Origin: Rariglobus hedericola
GTDB lineage: Bacteria > Verrucomicrobiota > Verrucomicrobiia > Opitutales > Opitutaceae
NCBI RefSeq assembly: GCF_007559335.1
Contig: NZ_VMBG01000002.1
Span: 1,046,501 to 1,110,500, forward strand
Length of the DNA: 64,000 bases
Reading direction: 5' to 3'
Position 1 is the stretch's first letter. Every line of letters starts with the position of its first letter. Positions 30,803-46,099 of the stretch are shown here, piece after piece. The notes beneath the pieces were generated by a model that searched no databases, was not told the origin of the DNA, and was given only the letters and a program-made list of their open reading frames with translations. The position numbers were made by a program, and so were the translations under genes.

Positions 30803-30839
30803 GGGTTTAAGGCGGGAGAGTGTTGAGGGCGGGAAATGG

Positions 30840-30866
30840 AAAAGCCCGCTATTTTAGCGGGCTTTT
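30840..30866 (-). terminator. Rho-independent terminator of the multiheme operon
   Basis: A 12-bp stem AAAAGCCCGCTA / TAGCGGGCTTTT with a 3-nt loop lies 29 nt beyond the stop of the propeller-decaheme gene. The T-run within the stem makes it work for the minus strand and possibly both. It closes the six-gene electron-transfer operon and insulates htpG. Confidence 0.88.
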
Positions 30867-30894
30867 CGAAAAATCAAGCGGGGGATTGATTGTT

Positions 30895-33800
30895 TTATTC
30901 GGCGGGGCGGCGAATGAGGCGGACGTTGGGCGGGCGGTTGATCGGTTCCTCGGGCTTTACGGGGAATTTCTCGGTGGGGTTGAGCGGCTTGCCGGAAGTG
31001 GTCTCGAGTTTGCCGTCGCGCCAGATCGGGTCGTCGACGCGATAGAGGCTGCCATCGGACTTGCGGATGAAGGCGTTGAACTCGGCGGCGGTGAACGGAC
31101 GACTGCCGCGGCGGCCGAAGACGACCGTCTGGTTTCCGCTTTCGTCGACCACGCGGTCACGATCCAAGCCGCGGCTCACGGCGACGGCGGGGCCGTGCGT
31201 GTGGTAGGTCGCGATGAGCTTGGGATTGGGCGGCGGGCTGAAGCCTTGGTAGCCGGGGACGTTTTCGGGGGAGATCAACTGGATCACGCGCAGGCCGTTT
31301 TTGCCGTCGGCCACGAGGGCAAAAGTCGAGGCGTTGACGGCACCGATCTGGACGGCGCGGGTGTCGTTGAGGCGACCGTCGGCGTTCCAGTGCTGGTGCA
31401 CATGGGCCTTGGCGGGGTTTTTGATGTCGATGATGGCGAGACCCTGGGCGCCGTTGGCCACGTAGGCGTAGGTGCGGGCAACGTAAACGCCCTGGGCATT
31501 GTTAAGCGGCACGGTGGCTTCGGGAATCAAGCGCGGGTTGAGCGCATCGCTGACGTCGAATACCTTGAGACCCTCGTCGTCGGTGACGAACGCGTGGAGG
31601 AACTGGAAGGCGAGCTTGCGTGGATTCTTGAGCGAACCGGCGGCGGCGCGGCCGGCGATTTTGGGTTTCGACGGCGTGGAGACATCGACTACCACGAGAC
31701 CTGCGGTGCAGGTCACGTAGAGATAATTGCCGGCGAGATAACCGTGGGTGGCTCCGTCAAGAATGCCGTCGGGGTTGAAACGGGTGACGTCGTCTTTCTT
31801 GAAGAAGTTATTCGTCGGGTCGCCATCGACCAAGGTGCCGACCATGACGGTGACGAGGCCCTCATATTTGTCGGTCACATACACGTAGCCGTAGGTGATC
31901 GAGATTGGCTGCTCCTCGTTGACGGGGTTGCGGGTGCGGAGCGGATCGATGCCGAGGGTGCTCGGTAGGATCACGCTGGTGGCGTAGCGCGTCTTGACGG
32001 ACGTGCGCTGGCCGAGCGGGGACACGGGCGTGGAGATGATGCGCTCGGAGAAGCCCTTGTTGTCGATGTTGGCGACGTCGAAGACCTCGAAGCCACCGGG
32101 GCCGTTGGCGGTGTAGAGATATTCGCCGCGCAAAGTGAGATCGAGGATCTCGTCACCACCATGATGATAAGCGGTCTGGAGGACGCCGTCGCGCTTGGTG
32201 TGCTCGGCAAAGTTATCGGGATAGGCGAGGCGGTGGAGGTTGCTACCGATGGCGGCTTGCGGCTCCTCGAGCTCGGTCCAGACAACGGCTTCGAGTCCCT
32301 TCTTGCCGGTGCCCACGTAGGCGTAGCGCCCGAAGAAGTTGACGGTGCCAGTGCCGAAGCCGAGCAGCTGAGTCATCCATGCGGCGTTGTCGTTTTGCGC
32401 GGAGAGATGGCAGTCGGTGCACGTCTTGGTGGTGCCAACGGAGCTCGTGGTGTGGGCGAAGTGCGGGTTGAACGCCTGGCCGGAGTAACCCTCGGCGGAG
32501 ACGGTTTGCTGCTGCGAATAAACCCATTCGCGGTTGGCAGTCTGCGAGCCGACGACGACGGCGCTCGACGAACGAATGACGGCGAGGCGGTTCTTTTTGT
32601 AGGTGGCGTCTTTGCCCAGCATGAAGACGTCGTCACGCACAACTTGCGGGTTGTAGCTAGTGTAGTTGCGCGTGGTGGTGCCCTCGAATTTGTTGCCGGC
32701 AACCATCTGGTTGGCGCGCATCGGCAAGTGACAACCGAAGCAACTGGTGGCCCAGGACGTATGGCACACCTGGCAGGAAATCGACGTGTCGGCGTGGGCG
32801 AGGAGGGCGTTGTTGGTGCGTTGAGTTTCGTCGGGGCGGACGGTCACGGGATCGACGCCGGCGGGAGGAAGATTGCCCCACGTTTTGCCGTCCTTGCGGA
32901 GGGTTTTCGCGTAGGCGGACTTGGCGTTGTAGTGCTCGGATGACGGATCGACGGTGTCGGCGGTCAGCGGAACTTCCCATGTGATGGCGGGGCTCATCAT
33001 GGAACGCTGGAAGAGTTTTTTGCCCTGCCAGTAGAAACGCGGACCCCACGGCGTGGTGCCGGCGGCGAGGTCGTTGGGGAGGACCTGGCCGTTTTCGAGA
33101 CGACCGCCGTTGCCGCTGGTTTTTAGCGTGGGGAACTTATCGACGGTGCCGTGGCAATCGATGCACTCGATGGCGGTGGCGGCACGCGGTTCGCCGTAGA
33201 GCAGGCCGTTGCCATGGACGTCGGTCGTGAAATGGCAGTCCACGCACTGCATGCCGCGCTCGAGGTGAATGTCCTTCAAGTGAATAGCCTTGGCGAATTT
33301 GTCGGGGTCGGTGTGGGCGATCTTTTTGTCATCGAGGGTGAGCAGTTCACCCTCCTTGTTTTTCTTGAAGACGGCACGGAAAACCCAGCCGTGTCCGTGG
33401 TAGTCGGCGAACTGGGTGTCCTTGAGCTTCGGGTTGAGCTCGGCGACTTTCTCCAGGAACTCGGGATCGCCCCAGAGACCGCGCGCGGCGGCGGCTTCGG
33501 GATTCTTTTGCAGGCTTTCGGCGAGCTCTTTCTCGGTCGGGTTTTTTTGCTTCTTCGGATACATCTGATCGCCGTCGCTCTCCTGATCCCACCACGTGTA
33601 GCCGAGGTAGGGATTCACGAAGAGATTACCCTGGTGCATGTGGCACGTCATGCAGGAGCTGGAGGGAATGCTGCGGGTGAACTGGTGCTTGATCGGGTGG
33701 CCCTTCTCCTTCTTGGAGATCATGGGATCGGCGGAGAAGGACAGGCCTTGGTGTCCGTATTTTGAATACCAACCGGAGTTGGTGGGCGAACGGTCGTTGG

Positions 33801-34812
33801 CGTAAACGACGTGGCAGGACGTGCAGCCCGAGGAGCGGAAATCGCCGGGATGGTTGTTGGAGCCCATGAAACCGAGGAGCGGATCGTTGAGGCGCGTTTT
33901 TTGGAGATTGAGGTAAACGGGATCGATGCGGTTGAGCGTGCCGAGACCGCGTTCGCTGAGACGGCGCAGCGGGCGACCCGGCGGTTCGAAGGCGTTGGGA
34001 TTGCCGAGCTCGACCTGGCGTTCGCCGCCCTTTTCGAAAATGCGGAGCAGGTTGGACGGCTGGCCAAGTGCGAAGCGGGGCAGCGCATCGAGGTAAGGGA
34101 GGATGCCTTGGTCGCGCGTCATTTCCGCGGTGACGGGGATCGGGCTTTCGAGGCGCAGCGGCGCACCATCGGGACCGTAAGCCTGGCCGAAGCGGTAGTT
34201 TTTATCGGGTGAAGCGCCGTTGTTGTAGAGCGCGGCACCCCAGAGCATGGCGCCGTGGTTCATCATGCTGTGCTGATTGGTCTTAACGATGTCGCCGTGG
34301 CAGAGGCCGCAGGACTTCTCGGCGACGCGGAGGTCACCGGGATTCACGAATTGGATGAACTCGGGCGACTCGTGGTTGAGCAGCACGGATGAGTCGGACG
34401 GGTTGGCGGAGCTCTGCCAGAAATCGGGATTACGCGGGGCGACGTGCGCCTTGGCCATGGTGAGGCCGGGCGTGGGGTTGCCGCCGTGACAGTCGACACA
34501 GCCGAGCACGACGTGCGGGGACTGGTGCATGTCCTCGATGCCTTGATGGCAGCTGACGCAGCCGACGCTCTTGAGGTCGGCTTGGGCGCGGGTCTGGTCG
34601 ATATTGTTGACCGGCTTCACGTCACCGGGAAGAGGCGGGTGGCCGGGAGGCAACGTGGACGTGGCGGGGCCGGCGACGACCTCGGCGGCGGGGCGCGGGG
34701 CGGGGGCGACCGGCTCAGGGCTGGCGAACATGACGAGCGCAGTCAGGCCAACACCCCACAGTGCGGTGGCCGCCAAAGCCCAACGAAAAATGAATCCGGA
34801 ATCCTTGCGCAT
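30895..34812 (-). CDS. Decaheme c-type cytochrome fused to a LVIVD-type beta-propeller (exported)
   Basis: 1305 residues. An N-terminal signal or anchor helix (about 9-30) has no lipobox. Ten CxxCH haem sites lie near residues 85, 105, 168, 330, 387, 523, 550, 680, 691 and 798. From about 826 to 1190 the chain becomes a propeller of repeated blades such as GYLAGNYLYVTCTAGLVVVD, FVTDDEGLKVFDV and YVANGAQGLAIIDI, which are LVIVD/YVTN-like. The tail is Pro/Arg-rich. As the last gene of an operon with an outer-membrane barrel (2-nt gap), it is the likely cell-surface or barrel-bound electron carrier; the propeller may bind a surface or partner. I know of no characterised protein with this layout. 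Confidence 0.88.
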   Translation of the reverse strand: MRKDSGFIFRWALAATALWGVGLTALVMFASPEPVAPAPRPAAEVVAGPATSTLPPGHPPLPGDVKPVNNIDQTRAQADLKSVGCVSCHQGIEDMHQSPHVVLGCVDCHGGNPTPGLTMAKAHVAPRNPDFWQSSANPSDSSVLLNHESPEFIQFVNPGDLRVAEKSCGLCHGDIVKTNQHSMMNHGAMLWGAALYNNGASPDKNYRFGQAYGPDGAPLRLESPIPVTAEMTRDQGILPYLDALPRFALGQPSNLLRIFEKGGERQVELGNPNAFEPPGRPLRRLSERGLGTLNRIDPVYLNLQKTRLNDPLLGFMGSNNHPGDFRSSGCTSCHVVYANDRSPTNSGWYSKYGHQGLSFSADPMISKKEKGHPIKHQFTRSIPSSSCMTCHMHQGNLFVNPYLGYTWWDQESDGDQMYPKKQKNPTEKELAESLQKNPEAAAARGLWGDPEFLEKVAELNPKLKDTQFADYHGHGWVFRAVFKKNKEGELLTLDDKKIAHTDPDKFAKAIHLKDIHLERGMQCVDCHFTTDVHGNGLLYGEPRAATAIECIDCHGTVDKFPTLKTSGNGGRLENGQVLPNDLAAGTTPWGPRFYWQGKKLFQRSMMSPAITWEVPLTADTVDPSSEHYNAKSAYAKTLRKDGKTWGNLPPAGVDPVTVRPDETQRTNNALLAHADTSISCQVCHTSWATSCFGCHLPMRANQMVAGNKFEGTTTRNYTSYNPQVVRDDVFMLGKDATYKKNRLAVIRSSSAVVVGSQTANREWVYSQQQTVSAEGYSGQAFNPHFAHTTSSVGTTKTCTDCHLSAQNDNAAWMTQLLGFGTGTVNFFGRYAYVGTGKKGLEAVVWTELEEPQAAIGSNLHRLAYPDNFAEHTKRDGVLQTAYHHGGDEILDLTLRGEYLYTANGPGGFEVFDVANIDNKGFSERIISTPVSPLGQRTSVKTRYATSVILPSTLGIDPLRTRNPVNEEQPISITYGYVYVTDKYEGLVTVMVGTLVDGDPTNNFFKKDDVTRFNPDGILDGATHGYLAGNYLYVTCTAGLVVVDVSTPSKPKIAGRAAAGSLKNPRKLAFQFLHAFVTDDEGLKVFDVSDALNPRLIPEATVPLNNAQGVYVARTYAYVANGAQGLAIIDIKNPAKAHVHQHWNADGRLNDTRAVQIGAVNASTFALVADGKNGLRVIQLISPENVPGYQGFSPPPNPKLIATYHTHGPAVAVSRGLDRDRVVDESGNQTVVFGRRGSRPFTAAEFNAFIRKSDGSLYRVDDPIWRDGKLETTSGKPLNPTEKFPVKPEEPINRPPNVRLIRRPAE

Positions 34813-34814
34813 GG

Positions 34815-37178
34815 TCAGTAAGTAAAGGTTACGGCGGCAACCGCGCTATAGAGCCAGTTGTCCACTTGGGGGCCGGCGGTAGTGAAACCCGGCACGACGG
34901 GCTGCGAGCGCCGGTAGATGTCGCGAAAGCCTTCTCCGGGCAGGAGAAAGCCGCATCCGAGCGAGAAGATGATGTTGTCCGTGAGCAGCGGGCGCCATTG
35001 CATGCCGACGCCGAGATCGATTCCGAATTCCTCGTCGACGTCGTTGGTGAGAAGCGCGGTCTTGATCGGCTCGGCGGTGACGAACCGGATGTAATTGGCG
35101 CTCAAAAAAGCGCGCACCTTGGGGGTGACTTCGATGTCGGCACCGACGCCGAACACGAGCAGGCCGGGGTTGACGAAGTTGGACTGCCCCTGGGTTTTGC
35201 TGGTGCGGAGATTGGGTAGCAGGCTGAAGCGCTGCTTCAAACCGACCGCAGTGCCGGCGAGGTTGAAACCTTGGCGCGTGTAATAACTGAACGGGCCGCC
35301 GGTGAAATTCACGTTGTCGACGATCGAGTCAAAGCCGGTCGCGCGACCATCGGTTGGATCGTTGTCACCGGACGCGTAGAAGGCCGAGGCCTTGTAGCGA
35401 ATCCAGTCGCGATCGTAACTGACTTCGAGCGCGGCCATCTGCGCGAAGATGTCGGTCGATCGGCCGGCGAGTCCGTTGAAGTCGTCGTGGCCGACGGCGA
35501 GATACGCGGCGTGGGAAACATTCCAACGGCCGACGTGACCGTCGCCCGCCCAGCCGAGGTAGTGGGCCTGGACCTTGTGCTCAACCGGCGAGCCAATCGG
35601 GGCGGGGCGGACAATCGCGCCATTGCGGTCGTAGTGCGTGCCGCCCTGGTCGAAGTTACCGTGGTAACTGAGCTGCGCGGTATAGCCCTTGGTCAGAAAA
35701 TCCTGTCGGTAAAGATTAGCAATGAGCACGCGCTGGTCGCGCGAATCGAAGGTGTTGAGCTCGGAGTTGGTGTCCTTCTCGCGCAGGTCGAAGACGGCCA
35801 GATTATACTGGTAGTGGTTGTTGTCGTAGTTGCCAAAAATACGGGCGCCCAGGTTGGTTTCGTTGAAGATGAAACCACGAAAATCACTGTTGAAGGTCTG
35901 ATTGCCGACCTTGAGCGCGACGAAATCGTAGTTGGGCGAAAGGTCGGCGAGGTGGAGCTCGAAAAACGCTTCCTGGAGGGCGAGGTAGTTGCGCGTGCGC
36001 AGAGTCGCGCCGCGGGCAAGGCTTCCGCTGGAGGTGCCACCGCCAATGATGCCCCCGACGTCATCAGGATCTTCAACGCCGGAGTTGTCGACGGGCGCAC
36101 CGCCATTGCCGGCACCGGGACCGCCGGGGTTGGGCGAGACGATGCCGGCCTCGCGGAAATCGACGCGGTTTACGTTGAACACGGGCCGCACGCGGAAAGC
36201 CCATTCGACGGGCTTGAACACCGTCTCGCCCTTGAAGAGCAGGAAATCGAGCGCGTAATTGGAGACGAAAATCTGCGAGCGGCTCTCGCCAAAGAAATCC
36301 GAGTTGCCCGGAGTCGCCGCGCTGACGCCGCTCGGCACGGTAAGCTTGCGATCTTCGAAGATGAACTCGGCGGAGGCGGTGACGGAGAGGAACACATCCT
36401 GGCCGTGAACGGGGCGGTCGCCCTTGAGCGTGCTCTGGCGGTAAGGGTGCCATAACTCCGTCTCGGTATTGGCGTAGGGGATCTCGTTGGTATCGCCGCT
36501 GGTGTAACGACGCCACGGGGTGAAGCCGACGTCGCGCCAGCGGTCGGGCGTGGGGGTCGTGTGCGCGGGCAGATCGACACCGGATTCAGAAAGTGGATAC
36601 GCAGCGGGCGCATGCCAGTGCTGGTGGATGAAGACGTTTTCACGGACGCCTTCACGCGGGAGTTTTTGGGAGTCGGGCAGGGGTGTGAGCTCGTCGCCCG
36701 CTGGCGCCACGGGGATGATCGGCGTGATCCGCGTGGTTTCCACGCCTGCACGCGGCAAGGCGAGGGAAGGCGGCACCGGGGCGTTCTCTTCGAGGACGAA
36801 GTCGATCTGGTTGGTTTTAAAGTAAGGATCGGTAACGGCGGGCGCGCGACGCTGGCTCGCGCCGGGATCAGGATTGAATTGATCGGGTGGCGCGGCGGGA
36901 GCTGACGTGTCGACCCGGCGCTCGACGCGGTAAACGGGTTCGGGGGCAGAGCGTCGCTCGGGAATGCGAGCGCCGGGATCGACCGGCGTATCTTCGGGGG
37001 CTGACGGCGCAGGCGTGCGGGCTTCGCGTTGGTGGGGACGGAGCGTATCGGTGGGCGTCTCGCGTTCGCCGAGGACGGGCGGTGAGGGTGACTCGGCGCG
37101 CGAAGGACCGACATTCAACGCGGATAACAATGTCAGCGCGGTCGCTGCCCGGAAACCATGAGTCCGCCCGCGCTTCAT
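34815..37178 (-). CDS. Outer-membrane beta-barrel protein (putative porin of a porin-cytochrome conduit)
   Basis: 787 residues: a signal peptide (cleavage near SRA-ESP), a Pro/Arg-rich periplasmic region of about 170 residues, then a long run of amphipathic strands (QIFVSNYALDFLLFKGE, NLGARIFGNYDNNHYQYNLAV, YTAQLSYHGNFDQGG) ending in the terminal aromatic strand VAAVTFTY of an outer-membrane barrel. A disordered loop lies at about 370-400. It is placed between two decaheme genes (ATGA overlap upstream, 2-nt gap downstream), the arrangement of porin-cytochrome electron conduits. It has no close resemblance to MtrB by eye; only the class is inferred. Confidence 0.82.
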   Translation of the reverse strand: MKRGRTHGFRAATALTLLSALNVGPSRAESPSPPVLGERETPTDTLRPHQREARTPAPSAPEDTPVDPGARIPERRSAPEPVYRVERRVDTSAPAAPPDQFNPDPGASQRRAPAVTDPYFKTNQIDFVLEENAPVPPSLALPRAGVETTRITPIIPVAPAGDELTPLPDSQKLPREGVRENVFIHQHWHAPAAYPLSESGVDLPAHTTPTPDRWRDVGFTPWRRYTSGDTNEIPYANTETELWHPYRQSTLKGDRPVHGQDVFLSVTASAEFIFEDRKLTVPSGVSAATPGNSDFFGESRSQIFVSNYALDFLLFKGETVFKPVEWAFRVRPVFNVNRVDFREAGIVSPNPGGPGAGNGGAPVDNSGVEDPDDVGGIIGGGTSSGSLARGATLRTRNYLALQEAFFELHLADLSPNYDFVALKVGNQTFNSDFRGFIFNETNLGARIFGNYDNNHYQYNLAVFDLREKDTNSELNTFDSRDQRVLIANLYRQDFLTKGYTAQLSYHGNFDQGGTHYDRNGAIVRPAPIGSPVEHKVQAHYLGWAGDGHVGRWNVSHAAYLAVGHDDFNGLAGRSTDIFAQMAALEVSYDRDWIRYKASAFYASGDNDPTDGRATGFDSIVDNVNFTGGPFSYYTRQGFNLAGTAVGLKQRFSLLPNLRTSKTQGQSNFVNPGLLVFGVGADIEVTPKVRAFLSANYIRFVTAEPIKTALLTNDVDEEFGIDLGVGMQWRPLLTDNIIFSLGCGFLLPGEGFRDIYRRSQPVVPGFTTAGPQVDNWLYSAVAAVTFTY

Positions 37179-38905
37179 TGCAGAATGGCGGTCCGTAGCG
37201 CTGCGGTCAGGCCGGCCGGTGCGGTGTTGTGATAGTTATGGCAAGTCATGCAGCTGTCGCCGGCGCCGCCTTTGGGCGAGTGACACGCAACGCAGGATTG
37301 CTGCGTGGGCATGATGACATCGGCGGTGAGCTGGCTGCTGGTGGCGCTGGTATGGCAGTCCACGCATGCCATGGTGGTGTGTTTTGCGTGGTTGAACGAT
37401 GCGTGCGGCATCCAGCGGTCGGGTGCCTGCGGCGTGGTGACGAGCGGCGTGGCGTTGCCCTGCGGCGTGACCTCGTGGCAGTAGGCGCAACCGGCAAAAC
37501 GGGCGCGGGCGAGGCCTTCGCGGCCGGCGATGATGGTGGCTTCGCCCTTCGCGCCATCAGCGAAGAAGACGGCGCGTTCGAGGTTCTCGCCGGAGAGCGT
37601 GCGCTCACGCAGGCCGGTGATACGGGCTTTCACGAAGGCTTCGATGTCGCGTTGTCCGGTCATGCCGAGACGGCGCTTGGCGTGGTCGGCGTATTGCGTG
37701 GGCAAGCTGCGCAGGAAGGCGCGGGCGAAGTCGGGGTTGCCGTGGGGAAGTTCGAGCCCCGGCGTGGTTTCGTCGATGGAGAGCGAATGACAGGAGCGAC
37801 AGTTTTTCTCGAAGCTCACGCGCTGCATAAAAGCACCGGAGGCGTCGGGCTGGTGGCACGAGGCGCACTCCAGGGATTTGCCGCCCAACGTGGGAATGGC
37901 GGAGCCGGTCAGGTGAAGCGCGTGGTTGAACTTAAGCGTATTCCGGTCGGCGTTTTTCTCACGCACGACTTGGAACTCGGGGTGGTTGGTGGCGAACCCC
38001 TGGATAAGCTGGGTGAAGCCGGCGGCAGGGCGCGAAACGGCCGGAGTGATGAGCCCCGGAGCGATGGTTTTGCTGAGCATCGCGGTGGAAAGCGTAGCGG
38101 CCTTTTCCGAGGCGAGACGCATCTGGTCCGCGTCGCCGTGGCAAGTCACGCAGTTTTGCGCAGAGACGGCGGCGAGCGTGCCGGGGCCCTTGTGTTCAAG
38201 ATGACAGACGGAACACGACATGTCCTTCGCGACGCTGGCCTGGTGAAACGTGTGGCCCGAATGACAGGTCACGCACGAAGCATCCATGCGGGAAAAATCC
38301 TTCGGATGCGGCGTGATGAAACGCGAGGCGGCCAGACCGTTGCGGGCCACGCCGGTGGCTTCGGAGGCGAGCGCGGTGAAGTTGCCATTGATACCCGGGT
38401 GACAGGCCACGCAGCCCTGGCCGGCATCGGAAACCGAGATGTTCGCGTGCTTCGCGGCGAGACGGGCAAACTCAGGGCCGGAGTGGGCGGGGGAAAGCGG
38501 CGCGGGGTTGATGAAGGATTCGCGCAAGGTGCCGCCGAGGCCGATCAACAACAGCGCGACGCAGACGATGACAAAGGCGCGCGTGATGAGTCCACGGCGG
38601 GCGCGCAGGCTGCGCACGGGACGGCATTTGGTGACGGCTTTGCAGCACGTGCCGTCAGGGAGCGGACCATCGGGGCAGGTGCCGCCCCAGTCTTTGGGGC
38701 GCGTGCATTTCCACGTGCCCTTGGTTTCACCTGGAGCCGTGACGAGCTGCGGTTTGCACTCGGTGGTGGCGCGACATTCGCCGGACGGGCTTGGCCCGAT
38801 GCGGCATGGGCAACCGTCGCAGGCGTGACCGCAGAGCCAGTTTTTATTCGGACGCTCGTAACGCGATTCGTCGAAATTGGGGGAGGGGGTGCGACCTTCG
38901 CTCAT
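37175..38905 (-). CDS. Inner-membrane-anchored decaheme cytochrome with Cys-rich cytoplasmic N-terminus
   Basis: 576 residues. Residues 1-105 are hydrophilic with 11 cysteines (25, 29, 32, 34, 44, 50, 67, 77, 87, 88, 94), followed by SLRARRG and one membrane helix (about 107-124), so the Cys-rich part should be cytoplasmic. Ten CxxCH sites follow in the periplasmic part (near 165, 211, 231, 252, 347, 369, 473, 514, 538, 552), with extra His residues as distal ligands. It probably takes electrons from the membrane cytochrome b-like protein and carries them across the periplasm. The Cys-rich domain could hold zinc or Fe-S clusters; its function is unknown. Confidence 0.9.
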   Translation of the reverse strand: MSEGRTPSPNFDESRYERPNKNWLCGHACDGCPCRIGPSPSGECRATTECKPQLVTAPGETKGTWKCTRPKDWGGTCPDGPLPDGTCCKAVTKCRPVRSLRARRGLITRAFVIVCVALLLIGLGGTLRESFINPAPLSPAHSGPEFARLAAKHANISVSDAGQGCVACHPGINGNFTALASEATGVARNGLAASRFITPHPKDFSRMDASCVTCHSGHTFHQASVAKDMSCSVCHLEHKGPGTLAAVSAQNCVTCHGDADQMRLASEKAATLSTAMLSKTIAPGLITPAVSRPAAGFTQLIQGFATNHPEFQVVREKNADRNTLKFNHALHLTGSAIPTLGGKSLECASCHQPDASGAFMQRVSFEKNCRSCHSLSIDETTPGLELPHGNPDFARAFLRSLPTQYADHAKRRLGMTGQRDIEAFVKARITGLRERTLSGENLERAVFFADGAKGEATIIAGREGLARARFAGCAYCHEVTPQGNATPLVTTPQAPDRWMPHASFNHAKHTTMACVDCHTSATSSQLTADVIMPTQQSCVACHSPKGGAGDSCMTCHNYHNTAPAGLTAALRTAILQ

Positions 38906-39729
38906 CGGGCACCTCCGGCAAATGCGTAAACCAGGACGACATGGACGAAGCTAAAAACGAGCAGTCCGTAGGTCAGCGGGATATGGACAAACAACCACGT
39001 CTTGAGCAGCAGCTGCACGGCGCGGTGGAAATCGAGGGCATCTTTCTGCCGCACGAGTTGAGCGAGTTGCGCGGAGGTTTCCTTTTCAGCGGGGCTGAGG
39101 AAGCGGTTCACTTCGGTGAACGCATCGAGCAGGGCCGCCAGCGGACGGCGCGAGCCGAAGGCATGGGCGCGGAAATTGGCGGGGCCGGCAAAGAAAACCG
39201 CGAGGCGGGCGGTGTAAAAATCCGCCAGCGTGGTGGCCTTTGCCGTGGGGATGGCGCTGAGCACCAGAGCCTCGGCCTGAGAGCGCAGATCGCGGCGGAT
39301 CACCGGAATGCGGTCATAGGGAACTTCGCCGCCGGCCGTCGTGAGTCGCTTCGGCAGGAGACGGGACAACCACCAACCGGCAATGCCGCTGAGCGTGACG
39401 CCGGCGAACATCGCAGCGAGTGTGATCTCAAACCAGCCGGTCGGAAACCGCCATTGCAGATGGAGCAGGAAGGCGAGACCGGTGAACAAGCCGAGGTAAA
39501 CGTGGATCTGAAACCAAACGCGCGAGGAAAGCAGCGGCAGGAACGTGAGCTTTTTGCGGGCGTTGTAGCCGGTGAGCACCAGCATGAGGGCCAGCAATCC
39601 CCAACCTGTGATGTAAACAAGATGTGGATACACGGGACGCATCGCTTCGTGCAGCCAGATGGCCGCGACCGAGGCGATCAGCAGCGCGGCGAGGAAACCG
39701 GAACGACGAAGGGCGAGGCCGCGGATCAT
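38902..39729 (-). CDS. Membrane cytochrome b-like subunit
   Basis: 275 residues from ATG 39729 (MIRGLALRRSGF); the upstream open frame is antisense/shadow sequence. Five hydrophobic segments carry paired histidines: YPHLVYITGWGLL, QIHVYLGLFTGLAFLLHLQW and, near the C-terminus, LDFHRAVQ, FVHIPLTYGLL and FSFVHVVLVY, as in membrane b-haem quinol or ferric-reductase-like proteins. A hydrophilic loop of about 100 residues splits the helices. It is coupled by ATGA overlaps to the ferredoxin-fusion gene and the decaheme gene, so it probably passes electrons from the cytoplasmic Fe-S protein to periplasmic haems. A named family is not clear. Confidence 0.78.
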   Translation of the reverse strand: MIRGLALRRSGFLAALLIASVAAIWLHEAMRPVYPHLVYITGWGLLALMLVLTGYNARKKLTFLPLLSSRVWFQIHVYLGLFTGLAFLLHLQWRFPTGWFEITLAAMFAGVTLSGIAGWWLSRLLPKRLTTAGGEVPYDRIPVIRRDLRSQAEALVLSAIPTAKATTLADFYTARLAVFFAGPANFRAHAFGSRRPLAALLDAFTEVNRFLSPAEKETSAQLAQLVRQKDALDFHRAVQLLLKTWLFVHIPLTYGLLVFSFVHVVLVYAFAGGAR

Positions 39730-41504
39730 CGGTTGATCCACGCCGCGAGTTCGTCGAGCGTGTTGAGGTTGATGCGTTTGAGCGCGTCGTGCGGACAGGC
39801 GCGTTCGCAGGCGGGGCCGCCGTATTGATCGATGCAGAGATCGCACTTGGTGGCTTTGACGATCGGCTTGGCGTCGCTGGCGATGAGGATGCCGCCGGAT
39901 TCGTCGCGTTGCTCCGTCATGCGAATGGCGTCGTAGGGGCAGTTGTTCGCGCACACGCTGCAACCGATGCAGCTGGCCGGATTGATGACGACCTCGCCCT
40001 CGAAGGAATCGCGATGGATGGCGCCTGTGGGACAGCCGATCATGCACACCGGATCGGCGCAGTGCATGCAGGCCTGCGCGACCATGATACTGTCGTGAAT
40101 CGGGCCGTGGCGCAGGAAGCGCGGATTGTTGTCGTGGGTATCCGAGCAAGCGCGCACGCAGTCGTCGCAACGCGTGCAACGATCCATGTCGATGACCATG
40201 GTCTCGGTGCCGTTGAAATAACGATTGGCGGTGAGGAACTCGATCATCTCCGAACCCACACGCGTGTCGGAGCCCTCGGCTGCGGCGACGGACGGCACGG
40301 CTTTGTCCGCCGCAGCGGCTGGAGCGATCGTCTTGGCAAACGGCGAAGTCGTGAAAGGCGAAGCCGCTCCGGTGCCGCCGGTATTGATCAGATCGGGCAG
40401 CAGGTGCTTAGGCAGCGAGGGCAGCACGACTTGTTCGATCACGGCGGCGGGAATCACCAGCACGTGTGTGTAGCCGATGACGCGCAACGTGTGTTGCAAC
40501 GCGACAGGCCGGCCCGGATCACGCCAGTTGTTCGCGATCTCGTTCCAGCCGTAGATACGACCGGAGCCGAGGTAGTTGAGGGTGCGATGGCCGTCGCCGT
40601 AACGTTGGGTGAGCCGGGCAAACCCTGCGCGAATCATCACGATGCCGTTGGGGTAGTCGCCCTCGGCGGCGATGATGGGTTCCTTGCCGGCGGAGGCACC
40701 GGCCTGCACAAGTTTCTTGTAGTCGCCGGACCAGTCGTAATCGCCGTAGGTCTCGAACTGCGTGGCGGCCATCACGCGGGCCTTGCCGGCCTCGTCGAGA
40801 TGCTGGAGGAACGGGATTTCGGCGAGGTAGGTCGAGAGGGCGCGTTCGCGATAGATGCGGTCGATGTGGGTGCGCAGCGCGGGATCATAACGCATGAGAT
40901 CGCGCAGGCCCTGCCAGCGGATTTCCAGCAACTCGGTTTCGTCCTCTTCGGCGAAAATCGTGGCGGTGCGCGGCATGCGCGAGAGGGCGGCGATCTCACC
41001 GAAAAAGTCTCCCGCGCGGATGGTCGCGGTGCGGTGCTGGTCGAGCACGCGGGGAACATCTTGAAGGATGATGTTGGTCTCGGCCTTGCCTTGAGTGAAG
41101 GAACCTTTGCGCGTCTTTTTGCGGGCGACCTCGTCCTCGCGCGAGTTCGCCCAGAGCTGGGCGATGGCGCGGAAAATCCCTCGACGTGCCGGTTCGCGAC
41201 GACCGACGGCGGAGGGCGGCAGGCCAGGCGCGAGGACCACCCGGGCCGAGCCGCGCAAAATCAAAAACGCCGAGGTGCCGTAGTCGCCTTCACGCACGAT
41301 GATCTCGCCTTTGGCGTAAGTGCGCAGGCGGGCGTCGTTCTTTAAAACATCGGGGAGCGGGGCCGAGCGAGGGAAGTTGTCGGCCTTCATGTCCGCGAAC
41401 GGCGGACGTAAAAGCAGACGGCTGATGTCCTGATCGGTCAGGTCATCAGTGAAAGGCGAATCCCAGCGGCGTGGACGATCGAGCCCGGTGACAACGGTGC
41501 TCAT
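39726..41504 (-). CDS. Fusion of two cyclic-nucleotide-binding domains with a four-cluster [4Fe-4S] ferredoxin
   Basis: 592 residues. The first CNB domain (about 50-225) holds a complete phosphate-binding cassette, GDFFGEIAALSRMPRTAT, with the ligand-binding Glu170 and Arg179; it is interrupted by a basic insert at about 98-145. The second (about 228-370) is degenerate (GSGRIYGWNEIANNW). After a Pro/Ala linker, residues 443-570 carry 16 cysteines in four groups (CTRCDDCVRAC, CMHCADPVCMIGC, CIGCSVCANNC, CDLC...CERAC), like DmsB/HybA electron-transfer subunits. There is no DNA-binding HTH. The layout suggests electron flow gated directly by cAMP, cGMP or a similar nucleotide. The start abuts the flavoprotein stop (TGATG). 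Confidence 0.9.
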   Translation of the reverse strand: MSTVVTGLDRPRRWDSPFTDDLTDQDISRLLLRPPFADMKADNFPRSAPLPDVLKNDARLRTYAKGEIIVREGDYGTSAFLILRGSARVVLAPGLPPSAVGRREPARRGIFRAIAQLWANSREDEVARKKTRKGSFTQGKAETNIILQDVPRVLDQHRTATIRAGDFFGEIAALSRMPRTATIFAEEDETELLEIRWQGLRDLMRYDPALRTHIDRIYRERALSTYLAEIPFLQHLDEAGKARVMAATQFETYGDYDWSGDYKKLVQAGASAGKEPIIAAEGDYPNGIVMIRAGFARLTQRYGDGHRTLNYLGSGRIYGWNEIANNWRDPGRPVALQHTLRVIGYTHVLVIPAAVIEQVVLPSLPKHLLPDLINTGGTGAASPFTTSPFAKTIAPAAAADKAVPSVAAAEGSDTRVGSEMIEFLTANRYFNGTETMVIDMDRCTRCDDCVRACSDTHDNNPRFLRHGPIHDSIMVAQACMHCADPVCMIGCPTGAIHRDSFEGEVVINPASCIGCSVCANNCPYDAIRMTEQRDESGGILIASDAKPIVKATKCDLCIDQYGGPACERACPHDALKRINLNTLDELAAWINR

Positions 41505-42799
41505 CAGGCGTCGATCACGAGTTTACCCTTGGGTTTGCAGATACACGTGAGGCAGGAGCCTTTTTCTGCGTCGGCACCGTGGCCGCCGAGGTATTCAACT
41601 TCTCCCGACTTCACCGCCACGAGGCAGGAGCCGCAATTGCCGGCGCGGCAGCCGGCATCGATCTTGATGTCGCGACTCTCGGCCAGATCGAGAAGTGAGT
41701 CATACGCCGAGTCCCAGATCGCGGTGATGCCCGATTTGGAAAACGTAACTTCGATGCCGGCGACCGGAGCATCATTGAGCGATTTTTTGACTTCGGGCGG
41801 CGCGGCTTTTTTGACCGATGCGGGACCGAACGCTTCGTAGTGAACCCAGGAATCGGGCACGCCCCACGCGCGCAGATCGTCGGTGATGCTCTCCATGAAC
41901 GGACCCGGGCCGCACAGGAAATAATCGTAGTTGTTGGAAGGAAGCAGCTCTTTGAAAAGGGCCACGTTCACCCGGCTCTCGTGATGGTAATCGCGTCCGT
42001 GGACATCGGCCGGCAGCGGTTTCGAATAACACACGTGAATGCGGGCGTGCGGGTGTTTGGCGACGAGCTCCGCCATGTAATCCTTGAACATGTGATCACG
42101 GCTGTTGCGCGCACCGAAGAAGAACCAGATCTCGCGGTTGTCGCCGGCCTCGATCAACGCGTTGGCCATGCTGACCATCGGCGTGACGCCCACGCCGCCG
42201 GAGATGAGCACGACAGGCCGCGGTTTTTCGAGATCCAGGAAGAAGTGGCCGTTCGGGGCCTTCACATCGAGGATGTCGCCCTCCTTGATGGAATCGCAGA
42301 AAAACGACGAGCCGATGCCGGGCGGATGCGAAGAGCCAGCCGGGGGCGGGCAGCGTTTGATGGTGACCCGGTAGTGCGTCGGGCGTGCGCAATCGGAGAG
42401 CGAATAACAGCGGATGACCGGCTTGGCCGAGCCCGGCACGGTGAGTTGAAATGTGAGGTATTGTCCCGGCTTGAATGACGGCAGCGGTTTCCCGTCATGA
42501 GGCTTCAAATAAAACGAGTAGGTGTCATCGCACTCGAACACCTTCTGGCTGACGGTGAACTTACGGATGCCATTCCAAGCGGAGCGCGCGAGCTCGACGG
42601 ATTGGATGCGTAAACGGGCCGCGTGGATATCCAGCGTGAGCCGTTCCTGTTCGAGACGGATGCGTCGGCGGTCAAAAACATAGCGGCGGACACCTCCACC
42701 CGCCCAGCAGCCGACTTGGACCATGATACCACCCACAATTACCCACCCGACGATCTGGGCCGGGTGTGATGAATTAAAAGTGAAAAGGTCGGTCCACAT
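41504..42799 (-). CDS. Membrane-anchored FAD/NAD(P) oxidoreductase with C-terminal 2Fe-2S ferredoxin domain
   Basis: 431 residues. One N-terminal helix (about 16-38) anchors a ferredoxin-reductase module: FAD motif RCYSLSD (about 131), NAD-binding GGVGVTPMVSM (about 195) and CGPGPFM (about 285). The C-terminal plant-type 2Fe-2S domain has CRAGNCGSC with the last Cys in SCLTCICKPKG. NqrF and Hcp reductases share this order. It would oxidise NAD(P)H and feed the Fe-S fusion protein encoded next (TGATG overlap). It is the first gene of the six-gene operon, so the operon promoter lies in 42800-42928. Confidence 0.92.
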   Translation of the reverse strand: MWTDLFTFNSSHPAQIVGWVIVGGIMVQVGCWAGGGVRRYVFDRRRIRLEQERLTLDIHAARLRIQSVELARSAWNGIRKFTVSQKVFECDDTYSFYLKPHDGKPLPSFKPGQYLTFQLTVPGSAKPVIRCYSLSDCARPTHYRVTIKRCPPPAGSSHPPGIGSSFFCDSIKEGDILDVKAPNGHFFLDLEKPRPVVLISGGVGVTPMVSMANALIEAGDNREIWFFFGARNSRDHMFKDYMAELVAKHPHARIHVCYSKPLPADVHGRDYHHESRVNVALFKELLPSNNYDYFLCGPGPFMESITDDLRAWGVPDSWVHYEAFGPASVKKAAPPEVKKSLNDAPVAGIEVTFSKSGITAIWDSAYDSLLDLAESRDIKIDAGCRAGNCGSCLVAVKSGEVEYLGGHGADAEKGSCLTCICKPKGKLVIDA

Positions 42800-42831
42800 G
42801 AATTGGTGTTTGCATCGTCTCCTTTCGCCCC

Positions 42832-42845
42832 GTGGAAAATTCCAC
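42832..42845. promoter_or_regulatory. Palindrome GTGGAA-AA-TTCCAC in the divergent electron-transfer promoter
   Basis: A 6-bp inverted repeat around an AA centre, 33 bp from the flavoprotein start and 84 bp from the tetraheme start. A TTGACG box (42871-42876) lies nearby. It is a candidate operator shared by both transcripts; the regulator is not known. Confidence 0.4.
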
Positions 42846-42928
42846 TGTTGCGATGGTCAGGATTGAACGTTTGACGCTATCGGGAAATTGGAGGAACCCG
42901 CATAGGGAAAACAACTATTTTATCCGGA

Positions 42929-44122
42929 ATGCCGATACTTAATTATTTTATAACATACTCGGGTTGCCGGCTGATGCTGATCTCAACAGGTTTGGCGGCC
43001 GCGTGCCTGTGCAACGCGGAGGTTACGCCGCCCCTGATCGCTTCGGATGTGTTCATTCACCCCTCGATTTTAGGTGCGAGTTCGTGCGCCACCAGTGGCT
43101 GCCACGGCGGTGCTTCGGAGAAGAGTCTTCAGTATGCGGTGTGGTCTCAGCGCGATGTGCACTCGCGGTCGTTTGCCACTCTTACCACCGCGCGTTCGGC
43201 GCGCATGGCGGAGGCCCTGAATATTCCTGACCCGACCGTGAGCACGCGGTGCACGACGTGCCATGCACCCTTTCACGCGGTGCAGGTGGCTACGCCCGGA
43301 TTGCTGGCTCCCGATGCGCGCGTGAATGAAGGCGTTTCCTGTGCGAGTTGCCACGGACCGGCCGGCGACTGGCTGCGCAGCCATACGCGCACCGATTACA
43401 CGCATGCCGACAAGGTCGCTGCAGGCATGAAGGAACTGGGCGATCTGAACGCACGAGCGGGCAGTTGCGTGGCGTGTCACCAGAATATAGATACCGATCT
43501 CGTAGTGACGGGAAAGCATCCGCGGTTGATTTTCGAGCTCGATGGACAGACCGCTTCGCAGCCGCGGCACTGGCGGGAGACGGCAAACTACAATGGTGCG
43601 CAAGCCTGGCAGGTCGGCCAGTGGGTCGCCTTGCGCGAAGTGAGCTGGGCGATGCTGCAGCAGACGGCATCTGTTGATGAGATTCAGCGCTGGCAGGCGC
43701 TGGTCTGGTTGATGCAACGCGCCGAAGGTCCGGATGCCGTTTCCGCGGGAGTGGCGGGCGATGCCCGTCTGGCTGAACCGGGACCGGAAAACTACGCGCG
43801 GGCCCGCGATATTGCCGCGCGGCAGGCGCGTGCGCTGGCGACATCGTTTAACTCCGCCCAAGTATCCGTGCTCCTGCGTAATCTCGCCTCCACGCATGCG
43901 GAATTTTTGGATTCGAAAATCGCCAGCCTGCAACACGCGTATCGCGCCGAGCGTCTGGTGCTGGCGCTGGACCGTTTGCTCAACGCGCTTCCGGCCGAAA
44001 AGCGTTCGCCCGATGCGTCGGCCCGTCTCACGAAACTCTTTGCCCAGGTCCAATCCATTCCCGGGTTTCAGCCGGTGGAATTTAGCCAGTCTCTCGATGC
44101 GTTTGCCCGGACACTGCGGTGA
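42929..44122 (+). CDS. Secreted tetraheme cytochrome c (c554-like)
   Basis: 397 residues with a signal peptide (hydrophobic stretch ending LCNA-EVT; an internal ATG at 42974 is a possible alternative start). Four haem sites are visible: an unusual CX4CH, CATSGCH at about 53, then CTTCH, CASCH and CVACH. The CATSGCHGG plus following CH pattern is that of the c554-like multiheme family. The C-terminal half is helical without further haems. It is divergent from the large electron-transfer operon and followed 15 nt later by the double GlcG/HbpS gene; it is a likely periplasmic electron shuttle. Confidence 0.88.
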   Translation: MPILNYFITYSGCRLMLISTGLAAACLCNAEVTPPLIASDVFIHPSILGASSCATSGCHGGASEKSLQYAVWSQRDVHSRSFATLTTARSARMAEALNIPDPTVSTRCTTCHAPFHAVQVATPGLLAPDARVNEGVSCASCHGPAGDWLRSHTRTDYTHADKVAAGMKELGDLNARAGSCVACHQNIDTDLVVTGKHPRLIFELDGQTASQPRHWRETANYNGAQAWQVGQWVALREVSWAMLQQTASVDEIQRWQALVWLMQRAEGPDAVSAGVAGDARLAEPGPENYARARDIAARQARALATSFNSAQVSVLLRNLASTHAEFLDSKIASLQHAYRAERLVLALDRLLNALPAEKRSPDASARLTKLFAQVQSIPGFQPVEFSQSLDAFARTLR

Positions 44123-44137
44123 TCACGCTTTCTTAAC

Positions 44138-46099
44138 ATGTCTCGTTCACGAATTCTCTGCGGTGTTTCGACGCTGATTTTCAGCGCGGCTTTTTCGTGG
44201 ATGAACGCGGCGCAGTTGTCCTCGGCGGATGTGGAGCGCATCTATGTGCAGGCGGCTGATCGTGCGGCGGAGTCGTCGATGAATTCCTACGTCATTGCCC
44301 TCGTTGACCGCGATGGACGCGTGCTGTTGGTGCGACGTGCCAATGGTGCCGGAGCAGTTACGGCCACGGAGCGGGCCATCGCGATTTCAAAGGCGGGCAC
44401 GGCAGTTTTCCTGAGCAGTAATCGCCACGCCTTCACGACGCGCACGGCGGGAAGCATCATACAGCAAAACTTTCCGGCCGGGGTTTTGAACCGTCCGCCC
44501 GGGCCGTTGGTGGGAGTGGGTTTTTCCAATCTAGCGCTGTCGGACATTAATTTTTTCCGTGAAAACGATGGCGTGCCCAACGGCACGGCGACTCCGGCGG
44601 GCGTGCTGACACCGGGCAGCCGAATCCTGGGGACGCGACTGTATGCTTCGCCGGGTGGCGTGCCGCTGTATGTAGGCGGGCAATTGGTGGCCGGGATCGG
44701 CGTTACCGGTGATGGAACCGAGACGGAGAACGCGAGCATCACGGGCGCCGATGGCGACGAAGCGGTCGCGCTGGCGGGACAGATCGGTTACGGGACGGGC
44801 CCCGAGCTGTGGGGTTCAAATGTATTTATCGACGGGATACGCGTGGACTACGTGGCCAGCATTGCGCGACTGGCTTCGTCATCGACCAGCACGTTGCCGC
44901 CGCAACCCGCGCCGCCGGCGCCGGTCGTGTGGCCGGTTGATGTGTTGGGAGGAGTGCGCGGTGAAGTGCGCGCGTTGATCAAGGCTGATCCGGTGCCCGG
45001 ACTGATCAGCGGCCAGCCGCGCCTGACGGCGGCGGAGGTTCGCCAAGTGCTCGCGCTGGGGGCTGAGCGCACCCGGCTCACGCGCGCGGGTATCCGTTTG
45101 CCCGCAGGGCAGGGAATGCAGGCCTTCATCACCGTGGTGAACAATCCCAACCAGGCGGGTGTTCCCGCAACGGTGCTGGGCACCTTTCGCACGCCGGATG
45201 CCACGATTTTCTCCTGGGACGTGTCGGTGCAAAAAGCGCGCACGGCGGTCTTTTTCTCGAATGCCACCCGCGCGTTCTCTTCTCGCACGGTGGGTTTTCT
45301 CGCCCAGACGATGTATCCGCCCGGTATCAACGGCACGTCGGCCGGCCCGTTCAACGGACTTCAAGAACGCTACTCGGGTCCGCTGTTGACGGGGGTGGGC
45401 ACGCCGAATGCCAACCTGCCCAACGGCATCACGATCTTCCCCGGTGGCATCCCGCTTTATCGCAACGGGGTGCTGATCGGCGCGATCGGTGTCTCGGGTG
45501 ATGGTATCGATCAAGACGATCTGGTGGCCGCTTCCGGCACGTTCGGGCTGCAGCCGGCCCAGGCGATCCGCGCCGATGAGACCTTGTATCTCGGCGTGCG
45601 ATTGCCCTACGCCAAGTTCCCGCGTGATTCCGCACTGGAAACTCCGGTGCCGGCCATCGCGCCCGGTTTCCCGACGTTCACGGCGTTGAATTTCACCGAG
45701 GCGGAGCTTGCCAGCGGACTTATCACGGCGCCCGGGGTCGACACCGATGGCGACGGGTTGTCCAATTTATTTGAATACGCCTTCGGTCTCGATCCGCGCG
45801 TGGCCGACGCAGCCGGGGCGGGCCCGATGATTTCTGTGAATGGATCCAGCCGACTGGAGATCGTTTTCCGCCGCGTATCAGCGGCAATCGACTTGGTTTA
45901 CAGTGTGGAGGTTTCGACGAACCTGACCACCTGGACGCCCATCGCGCGAAGCACCGGTGGTGGTGCCGTGCAAAATCTGGGTGGCGCCCAATCCATCGTG
46001 GAGACGGGAGTCGGCACGTTGACCGTGACGGTCGAGGATGCGGTCGCGGTGACAGGACCGGGCAGCCGCTTTTTGCGTCTGACGGTCACACGTCCTTGA
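44138..46099 (+). CDS. Secreted protein with two GlcG/HbpS (DUF336) domains
   Basis: 653 residues. A signal peptide ends near WMNA-AQL. Two DUF336-type domains (about 25-240 and 285-500) each have KAGTAVFLSSNRHAF or KARTAVFFSNATRAF plus the GGVPLY...GIGVTGDG / GGIPLY...GAIGVSGDG signature; both are larger than the usual 140 residues. The tail holds DTDGDGLSNLFEYAFGLDP, a calcium-type loop common in Opitutaceae secreted proteins, and a beta domain. HbpS relatives bind haem; next to cytochrome genes this suggests haem capture or redox sensing, though DUF336 proteins are broadly distributed. Confidence 0.82.
   Translation: MSRSRILCGVSTLIFSAAFSWMNAAQLSSADVERIYVQAADRAAESSMNSYVIALVDRDGRVLLVRRANGAGAVTATERAIAISKAGTAVFLSSNRHAFTTRTAGSIIQQNFPAGVLNRPPGPLVGVGFSNLALSDINFFRENDGVPNGTATPAGVLTPGSRILGTRLYASPGGVPLYVGGQLVAGIGVTGDGTETENASITGADGDEAVALAGQIGYGTGPELWGSNVFIDGIRVDYVASIARLASSSTSTLPPQPAPPAPVVWPVDVLGGVRGEVRALIKADPVPGLISGQPRLTAAEVRQVLALGAERTRLTRAGIRLPAGQGMQAFITVVNNPNQAGVPATVLGTFRTPDATIFSWDVSVQKARTAVFFSNATRAFSSRTVGFLAQTMYPPGINGTSAGPFNGLQERYSGPLLTGVGTPNANLPNGITIFPGGIPLYRNGVLIGAIGVSGDGIDQDDLVAASGTFGLQPAQAIRADETLYLGVRLPYAKFPRDSALETPVPAIAPGFPTFTALNFTEAELASGLITAPGVDTDGDGLSNLFEYAFGLDPRVADAAGAGPMISVNGSSRLEIVFRRVSAAIDLVYSVEVSTNLTTWTPIARSTGGGAVQNLGGAQSIVETGVGTLTVTVEDAVAVTGPGSRFLRLTVTRP

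Follow-up and report, generated by a model that had tools for sequence, protein, structure and literature searches.

A two-module NAD(P)H-linked cytochrome and channel gene cluster in Rariglobus hedericola, a candidate electron outlet

Where could electrons go when they leave cytoplasmic NAD(P)H along flavin, iron-sulfur, and heme carriers whose genes end beside an outer-membrane barrel? The question is raised by a gene cluster of Rariglobus hedericola (Verrucomicrobiota, Opitutaceae), in a stretch of 64,000 nucleotides (assembly GCF_007559335.1, contig NZ_VMBG01000002.1, positions 1,046,501 to 1,110,500) that we call the window. It comprises six genes on the minus strand, A to F, and two divergent ones, G and I (Table 1). 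An earlier note, made from the sequence without database searches, had read A to F as a complete operon taking electrons to the cell surface. Here, we find that the cluster is a real, conserved, and modular electron-transfer set. It is made of two modules, an inner-membrane one (A-B-C-D and G), which resembles the published putative porin-cytochrome complex 4 (PCC4), and an outer one (E-F and I). Our preferred reading, to which we give a probability of about 0.4, is that these modules form an NAD(P)H-driven electron outlet serving an acceptor that enters through a channel.

Table 1. Features of the cluster, in positions of the window
Feature	Position	Strand	Description
A	41504..42799	-	NAD(P)H flavoprotein reductase tethered to the membrane, with a 2Fe-2S ferredoxin domain at the C-terminus, 431 amino acids
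B	39726..41504	-	cyclic-nucleotide-binding domains fused to four-cluster 4Fe-4S electron-transfer domain, 592 amino acids
C	38902..39729	-	five-helix membrane protein with ligands for two b-hemes, 275 amino acids
D	37175..38905	-	Cys-rich N-terminal segment (probably cytoplasmic), one transmembrane helix, and decaheme c-type domain, 576 amino acids
E	34815..37178	-	predicted outer-membrane beta-barrel, AlgE/OprD-like (AlphaFold2 model), 787 amino acids
F	30895..34812	-	exported decaheme c-type cytochrome with C-terminal LVIVD beta-propeller, 1305 amino acids
G	42929..44122	+	c554-like cytochrome with four heme motifs, 397 amino acids
I	44138..46099	+	two HbpS-like domains and a signal-like segment at the N-terminus, 653 amino acids
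Intergenic region between divergent A and G	42800..42928		129 base pairs (bp)
Terminator-like hairpin 3' of F	~30839..30867	-	perfect 13-bp hairpin, read by eye

The six reading frames lie where the earlier note had placed them and are tightly packed, with a 1-nucleotide (nt) overlap at A/B (TGATG), overlaps of 4 nt each at B/C, C/D, and D/E, and a gap of 2 nt at E/F. The terminator it described after F is present too, as an inverted repeat without mismatch around a 3-nt loop, although a consensus terminator scan did not list this hairpin. Calling the operon complete with six genes was too narrow, since the conserved divergent genes G and I belong to the set. We place the start of gene C at the ATG at 39729; a longer open reading frame (ORF) from a TTG (38902-40179) extends into B. 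The A/G intergenic region holds an inverted repeat upstream of A, GTGGAA-TT-TTCCAC, which was discarded as a candidate operator: none of the 19 relatives examined showed it upstream of A.

How far do the encoded proteins support a path out of the cytoplasm? The cofactors that had been proposed for A to F agree with the Pfam domains, the CXXCH counts, the WX3HX13H motifs, and the AlphaFold2 barrel. Residue conservation was counted after excluding rows with less than 30% identity, with E values above 1e-30, below the length limit, or from locus L072. Protein A matches NAD_binding_1 (6.4e-21), Fer2 (7.3e-11), and FAD_binding_6 (4.2e-8), has a single N-terminal hydrophobic segment (residues 16-34), and has C384, C389, C392, C416, and C419 at 100% in 51 rows. 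Protein B matches cNMP_binding (1e-23) and several Fer4 families, among them Fer4_11 (PF13247; 41.4 bits for a cut-off of 26.2), and its gene lies directly upstream of C. All of its 16 cysteines between C443 and C570, spaced for four 4Fe-4S clusters, are at 100% in 52 rows. In the same rows, G169, E170, R176, and R179 are kept at 98% or more; the first two and R179 belong to a phosphate-binding cassette. Protein C has no Pfam match. The window protein shows five hydrophobic peaks, both WX3HX13H motifs are found in 52/52 rows and SGXXG in 48/52, and H76, H90, H249, and H263 are at 100%. Protein D has a transmembrane segment at residues 105-123 and ten CXXCH motifs, kept in 51/51 rows; like F, it matches cytochrome families of Pfam. 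Eight cysteines ahead of its transmembrane helix are conserved at 94-96% (51 rows). Finally, G matches Cytochrome_C554 (3.5e-9), keeps one CX4CH (C53, C58, H59) and three CXXCH motifs at 100% in 43 rows, and is the divergent neighbor of A in most of the ABCD loci seen. The conserved ligands, i.e., the 16 cysteines of B, the motifs of C, and the heme motifs of D and F, make a predicted path from NAD(P)H to periplasmic hemes well supported. The N-terminal part of D deserves a mention of its own: residues ~16-100 contain two repeated Cys-rich motifs, about 94% conserved, that match no Pfam family and may form a metal or Fe-S domain not yet described. This segment, and any cofactor in it, would lie in the cytoplasm.

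Is such an inner half already known? PCC4 was proposed by He et al. (2017; PMC5566968). Its subgroup II comprises a porin, cytochromes with 4, 5, and 10 hemes, an Fe-S gene with PF13247, and a five-helix protein carrying WX3HX13H twice as well as SGXXG. A redox gene lies by the tetraheme gene and the Fe-S gene precedes the membrane-protein gene. The window has the counterparts of most of this: a five-helix C with both motifs and SGXXG, a PF13247 gene (B) upstream of it, and cytochromes with four (G) and ten (D) heme sites. It differs in that the cluster genes include no 5-heme cytochrome (the search covered the cluster alone), F having ten sites, and in that E, F, and I make up the outer half instead of a porin and a pentaheme protein. 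Hence, on components and motifs rather than on the published PCC4 sequences, A-D and G match the inner-membrane half of PCC4 as described there. We also found sets that come closer to the published description. A more distant B-C-D set is present in eight fetched loci, seven of which have A as well; their stretches contain no F. In L194, L204, L209, and L211, a pentaheme protein of 640-693 amino acids and a ten-heme D stand beside the ABCD-related set, together with a protein of 470-519 amino acids that has at most two cysteines and is porin-like by position only. A tetraheme ORF is present in the first three, which thus carry the whole PCC4 component list given in PMC5566968, pentaheme protein included; L211, with just a weak G-like hit, has all of it except the tetraheme gene. 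A profile of E gave E values of 8 to 10 against the porin-like proteins in three of these loci and no match in the fourth, published PCC4 porins not being in the comparison. The statement of the earlier note that it knew of no characterized system with this component set thus stands in part. No experiment on a system with this set was found in the open-license literature, whereas PCC4 subgroup II (PMC5566968) closely describes the inner-membrane half. The inner half is a published candidate system; the outer half (E, F, and I) was not found described.

What, then, is this outer half? An AlphaFold2 model of E built with 71 sequences (pLDDT 77.5, pTM 0.70) has 18 long strands, counted by hand, between residues 262 and 786, mostly at high confidence; the N-terminal ~250 residues were modelled at low confidence. 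Its best fold match is AlgE (Foldseek E value of 8.9e-17), followed by OprD/Occ channels, and VIA-align superposes it on AlgE with a Z of 27.8 and an rmsd of 2.7 over 357 residues. The Pfam family Alginate_exp scores 17.8, under its cut-off of 25.2. The predicted 18-strand barrel thus resembles those of the AlgE/OprD (Occ) channels, from which E differs by its N-terminal extension and its genetic tie to a cytochrome. An MtrB-like barrel was considered and rejected: both structure searches listed AlgE, OprD/Occ, chitoporin, and maltoporin among others, and MtrB is not among the 50 matches listed in each, by itself no exclusion. Protein F has ten CXXCH motifs, kept in 110/110 complete ORFs (not deduplicated), and matches LVIVD (2.3e-21). 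Its propeller part is well modelled by AlphaFold2, and a search of PDB structures returned propellers among the 50 matches listed. The N-terminus is hydrophobic, the first cysteine is residue 85, and there is hence no lipobox; the lipobox pattern occurs in just 3 of the 110 complete ORFs, which we judge to be chance. Protein F also scores 65.5 bits (E value of 2.9e-18) with ExtM of selenite/tellurite operons (NCBIfam NF040943), far under the family cut-off of 800, and differs from it in having a propeller and ten hemes. A porin-like protein, ExtI, belongs to the selenite/tellurite operon and would parallel E. Kinship of F with octaheme nitrite reductases was rejected, the profile match (E values of 2e-4 to 6e-4) being limited to one heme-pair stretch. 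As for I, it matches HbpS-like PF03928 (2.8e-26) in two stretches and resembles GlcG/PduO/EfgA-type structures only weakly. It is a neighbor of E-F even in fetched stretches that lack A-D. Searches of the open-license literature returned nothing for LVIVD combined with multiheme, for HbpS with multiheme and porin, or for cyclic nucleotide-binding with multiheme cytochrome, porin, and extracellular electron.

Do the two modules belong together? At E values up to 1e-20, F is found in 34 of 286 genomes of the class, that of the window included, and the others are 62-77% identical to the F of the window; larger stretches from the 33 other genomes were compared for gene content. A contig scan with one genome per species gave 531 confirmed relatives of F among 574 candidate stretches. 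The best 80 of the 531 comprise 76 named Verrucomicrobiota (including IMCC26134), three unplaced sequences, and one titled Proteobacteria. After removal of loci whose F had already been seen, 101 distinct F loci were available, many of them on contigs that end early: 90 have E, 56 have I, 39 an NHL-propeller gene, 29 have B, and 24 have all of A to F. The order A-B-C-D-E-F is kept in Opitutaceae-like relatives, while other relatives are rearranged. With genes whose translation held a stop excluded, there are at least eight arrangements of the same genes, counting the places of G and I. Examples are D<C<B<A< G> E> F>, I between D and E, and A-D downstream of F. A quick tree of F implies at least 15 changes between the linked and the unlinked state of the modules, among 68 scorable loci (34 linked and 34 not) left after 31 of 99 rows without enough flank were dropped; this tree comes with a warning on long branches, above all that of L213. 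Such varied arrangements, with no single frozen order, argue for a shared task. The genes also co-occur across genomes. At E values up to 1e-60, B is found in 19 of the 34 genomes with F (21 at 1e-30) and in five of about 252 without it, an odds ratio of 63 that ignores relatedness and assumes that the 384-genome draw contains the 286 (the handle numbers are the same). The 30 genomes with B in that draw are these 19, the five first-draw genomes without F, and six outside the first draw, at least one of which (G380, locus L201) has F. Finally, COX1 scored above the cut-off in all of the 15 F-bearing genomes tested out of 34; these hosts carry heme-copper oxidases and are thus probably capable of using oxygen.

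Outside Verrucomicrobiota, plasmid records were the only route to further taxa. Sixteen such records match F, and 13 of them cover at least 80% of the query, 12 from Sphingobium and one from Sphingopyxis, at 41-46% identity. The three remaining ones (two Gloeothece and one Nostoc) cover 18-28% of F, in the propeller, and were dropped. The plasmid pMSHV of Sphingobium herbicidovorans (L213) has the order G, I, E, F, faced by D, C, B, with an F that is 46% identical over 92%. In place of A, its B is fused to an unrelated Pyr_redox flavoprotein; an FHA-like segment replaces the Cys-rich one of D; and C has a weak cytochrome b561 score (the last two below the Pfam cut-offs). The plan is kept while the parts change, which we count in favor of an electron outlet. 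Next to this cluster lie a gene of the ShlB/FhaC family and one for a very large hypothetical protein (L213:1476-9629), possibly a two-partner-secretion pair.

Other neighbors recur around these genes. An NHL-repeat gene lies 3' of F and overlaps its stop in several loci (e.g., L044:2033-3331, L045:2337-3611, and L050:15622-16890). In the window, F is followed by the terminator and an htpG-like gene, recognized by eye, and the NHL-repeat gene is absent after F. One family without linked ABCD has a CysJ-like FAD/NAD(P) reductase downstream of F (L047:15699-16862, L048, L051, L052 with two in tandem, L053, and L071), which we considered either as an alternative donor or as an unrelated gene. Homologous small genes separate E and F in one family (L047:10843-11334, L048:7088-7543, L052:10532-11038, and L053:6984-7436); that of L047, the one scanned, matches the 23S rRNA-intervening-sequence protein family PF05635. 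In another locus, a cytochrome c assembly protein (Cytochrom_C_asm) is encoded inside the cluster, between D and G (L060:10437-12377). Finally, in genome G000 a second group of CXXCH-type motifs, among the places listed (C4:136178-146082), lies near a heme-copper oxidase gene (C4:144514-145749).

How could the two modules work as an outlet? A would oxidize NAD(P)H via FAD and then its 2Fe-2S cluster, B would relay the electrons via four 4Fe-4S clusters, and C would carry them across the inner membrane via two b-hemes. The cyclic-nucleotide-binding domain of B could gate this flow. In the periplasm, the membrane-anchored decaheme D and the tetraheme G would collect the electrons for F, the terminal decaheme-propeller protein partnered with the 18-strand channel E. 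The chain would thus run from NAD(P)H through FAD, 2Fe-2S, four 4Fe-4S, two hemes b, and ten hemes c in D to four in G and ten in F. The place of F could be the periplasmic side or the inner face of the outer membrane, where it would reduce a soluble acceptor entering via E, with I as a possible partner. Electrons leaving NAD(P)H for the periplasm would dissipate membrane potential. Hence, energy conservation is an unlikely purpose, and redox balancing, detoxification, or reductive assimilation would be likelier; the set could be a redox outlet, or a detoxifying or assimilatory reductase, in bacteria also able to respire oxygen.

Several lines of evidence support the outlet. Conserved cofactor ligands extend over the path from end to end. 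The modules occur linked in many arrangements, gain or lose this linkage repeatedly, and co-occur as B and F. In four loci, the neighbors of a related ABCD set are another porin-like gene and a pentaheme protein. The AlgE/OprD-like fold of E, the missing lipobox of F, the weak match to ExtM, and COX1 in every genome tested point the same way. Other observations weigh against it. F is found without a detectable E in L061, L062, and L069 (one family), despite sufficient flank, so E is not universal. Full-length B is missing from 15 of the 34 F-bearing genomes, where E-F must use other donors or none. The heme part of F is poorly modelled by AlphaFold2, which puts any catalytic site out of reach, and the best ExtM stretch spans a single heme-pair region of F. 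Eighteen strands alone leave a conduit possible, since small barrels may also occur in other porin-cytochrome systems. Finally, no acceptor was identified, and the open-license literature offered no experiment.

The strongest competitor is a conduit across the outer membrane, in which E would sheathe or dock a decaheme protein and F would present electrons at the surface for extracellular transfer (Fe(III), humics). The MtrCAB systems give the comparison: MtrB is a barrel of 26 strands and MtrC a surface decaheme lipoprotein. The window shares with them multiheme cytochromes beside an outer-membrane barrel. It differs in the dedicated NAD(P)H flavoprotein, which Mtr lacks, in the 18 long strands modelled for E, and in F, which has no lipobox. 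Simple geometry gives the modelled barrel of E an inner width of ~22-26 Å, compared with ~36-42 Å for 26 strands. That E adjoins F in 90 of the 101 distinct loci favors a conduit, as do the LVIVD repeats of F, reportedly named in a study of cell-surface repeat proteins; the oxygen reductases found in all 15 F-bearing genomes tested speak against it. Precedents in the phylum favor it too. The earlier note mentioned reports from freshwater Verrucomicrobia, and rightly: porin-multiheme clusters, with octaheme cytochromes in the periplasm and porins having 20 or more transmembrane motifs, were described there and proposed for humic reduction (He et al. 2017 mSphere; PMC5615132), an idea extended to humic lakes (PMC6344600). 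IMCC26134, named in PMC5615132 as having homologs, also carries the present cluster (L084). By their descriptions, the likeness is one of phylum and of a porin adjoining multiheme genes; the difference is one of octahemes and at least 20 motifs there versus decahemes and 18 strands here. With an AlgE/OprD-type barrel predicted for E and no lipobox in F, a crossing of the outer membrane by F is not supported. This bears on two conditions that, in the earlier note, would refute its path, an unrelated porin and decahemes confined to the periplasm, without deciding either. A channel letting a small acceptor reach F from outside would fit at least as well as exposure at the surface, and the weak ExtM match of F points the same way, with a score far under the cut-off of that family. 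The path in the earlier note is therefore supported in its inner-membrane part, a dedicated NAD(P)H-flavin-Fe-S-b-heme-c-heme set, and in its barrel partner, whereas its last step to the cell surface is not supported as worded. Overall, we regard a surface conduit as possible and somewhat less probable than the outlet.

Could the electrons flow inward instead? F would then oxidize an extracellular or periplasmic donor, and the electrons would enter via D-C-B-A, possibly reaching NAD(P)+. The inner-membrane half matches that of PCC4, found in Fe(II)-oxidizing Zetaproteobacteria and modelled by He et al. (2017) with electrons moving from the donor to the quinone pool (PMC5566968), and the flavoprotein is in principle reversible. 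Against this, reaching NAD(P)+ is uphill and would cost membrane potential. The host groups, polysaccharide-degrading Verrucomicrobiota and aromatic-degrading Sphingobium, are moreover organotrophs, and we consider an inward flow improbable. Less probable still is a mere co-location of two functionally separate systems, a general NAD(P)H-cytochrome module on one side and a channel with a cytochrome, unrelated to it, on the other, since the modules, although found apart in many genomes and despite the AlgE/OprD likeness of E, are repeatedly linked in different arrangements, Alphaproteobacteria included, and B co-occurs with F.

The electron outlet has a stronger version, which we hold to be doubtful: F could be a new class of terminal reductase in Verrucomicrobiota and Sphingobium that respire oxygen, namely a decaheme-propeller enzyme fed with NAD(P)H electrons by a cyclic-nucleotide-gated chain, equipped with a dedicated AlgE/OprD-type substrate channel, and partnered by a double-HbpS protein. 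If so, the strong conservation of F within the class and in the Sphingobium and Sphingopyxis plasmids would reflect catalysis and not simple wiring.

What would this mean for the bacteria that carry the cluster? Judging from its distribution in genomes, the gene set looks common, and bacteria that have oxygen reductases may use it to move NAD(P)H electrons beyond the cytoplasm. Provided that the outlet reading holds, the pathway would bypass quinol and would not serve energy conservation. It could help to balance the redox state or drive reductions on the far side of the inner membrane, and a cyclic nucleotide could set the flow. The swapping of outer partners on a constant inner half offers a way to predict further such systems, and carriers with complete genomes, IMCC26134 and Sphingobium herbicidovorans MH, make the cluster testable.

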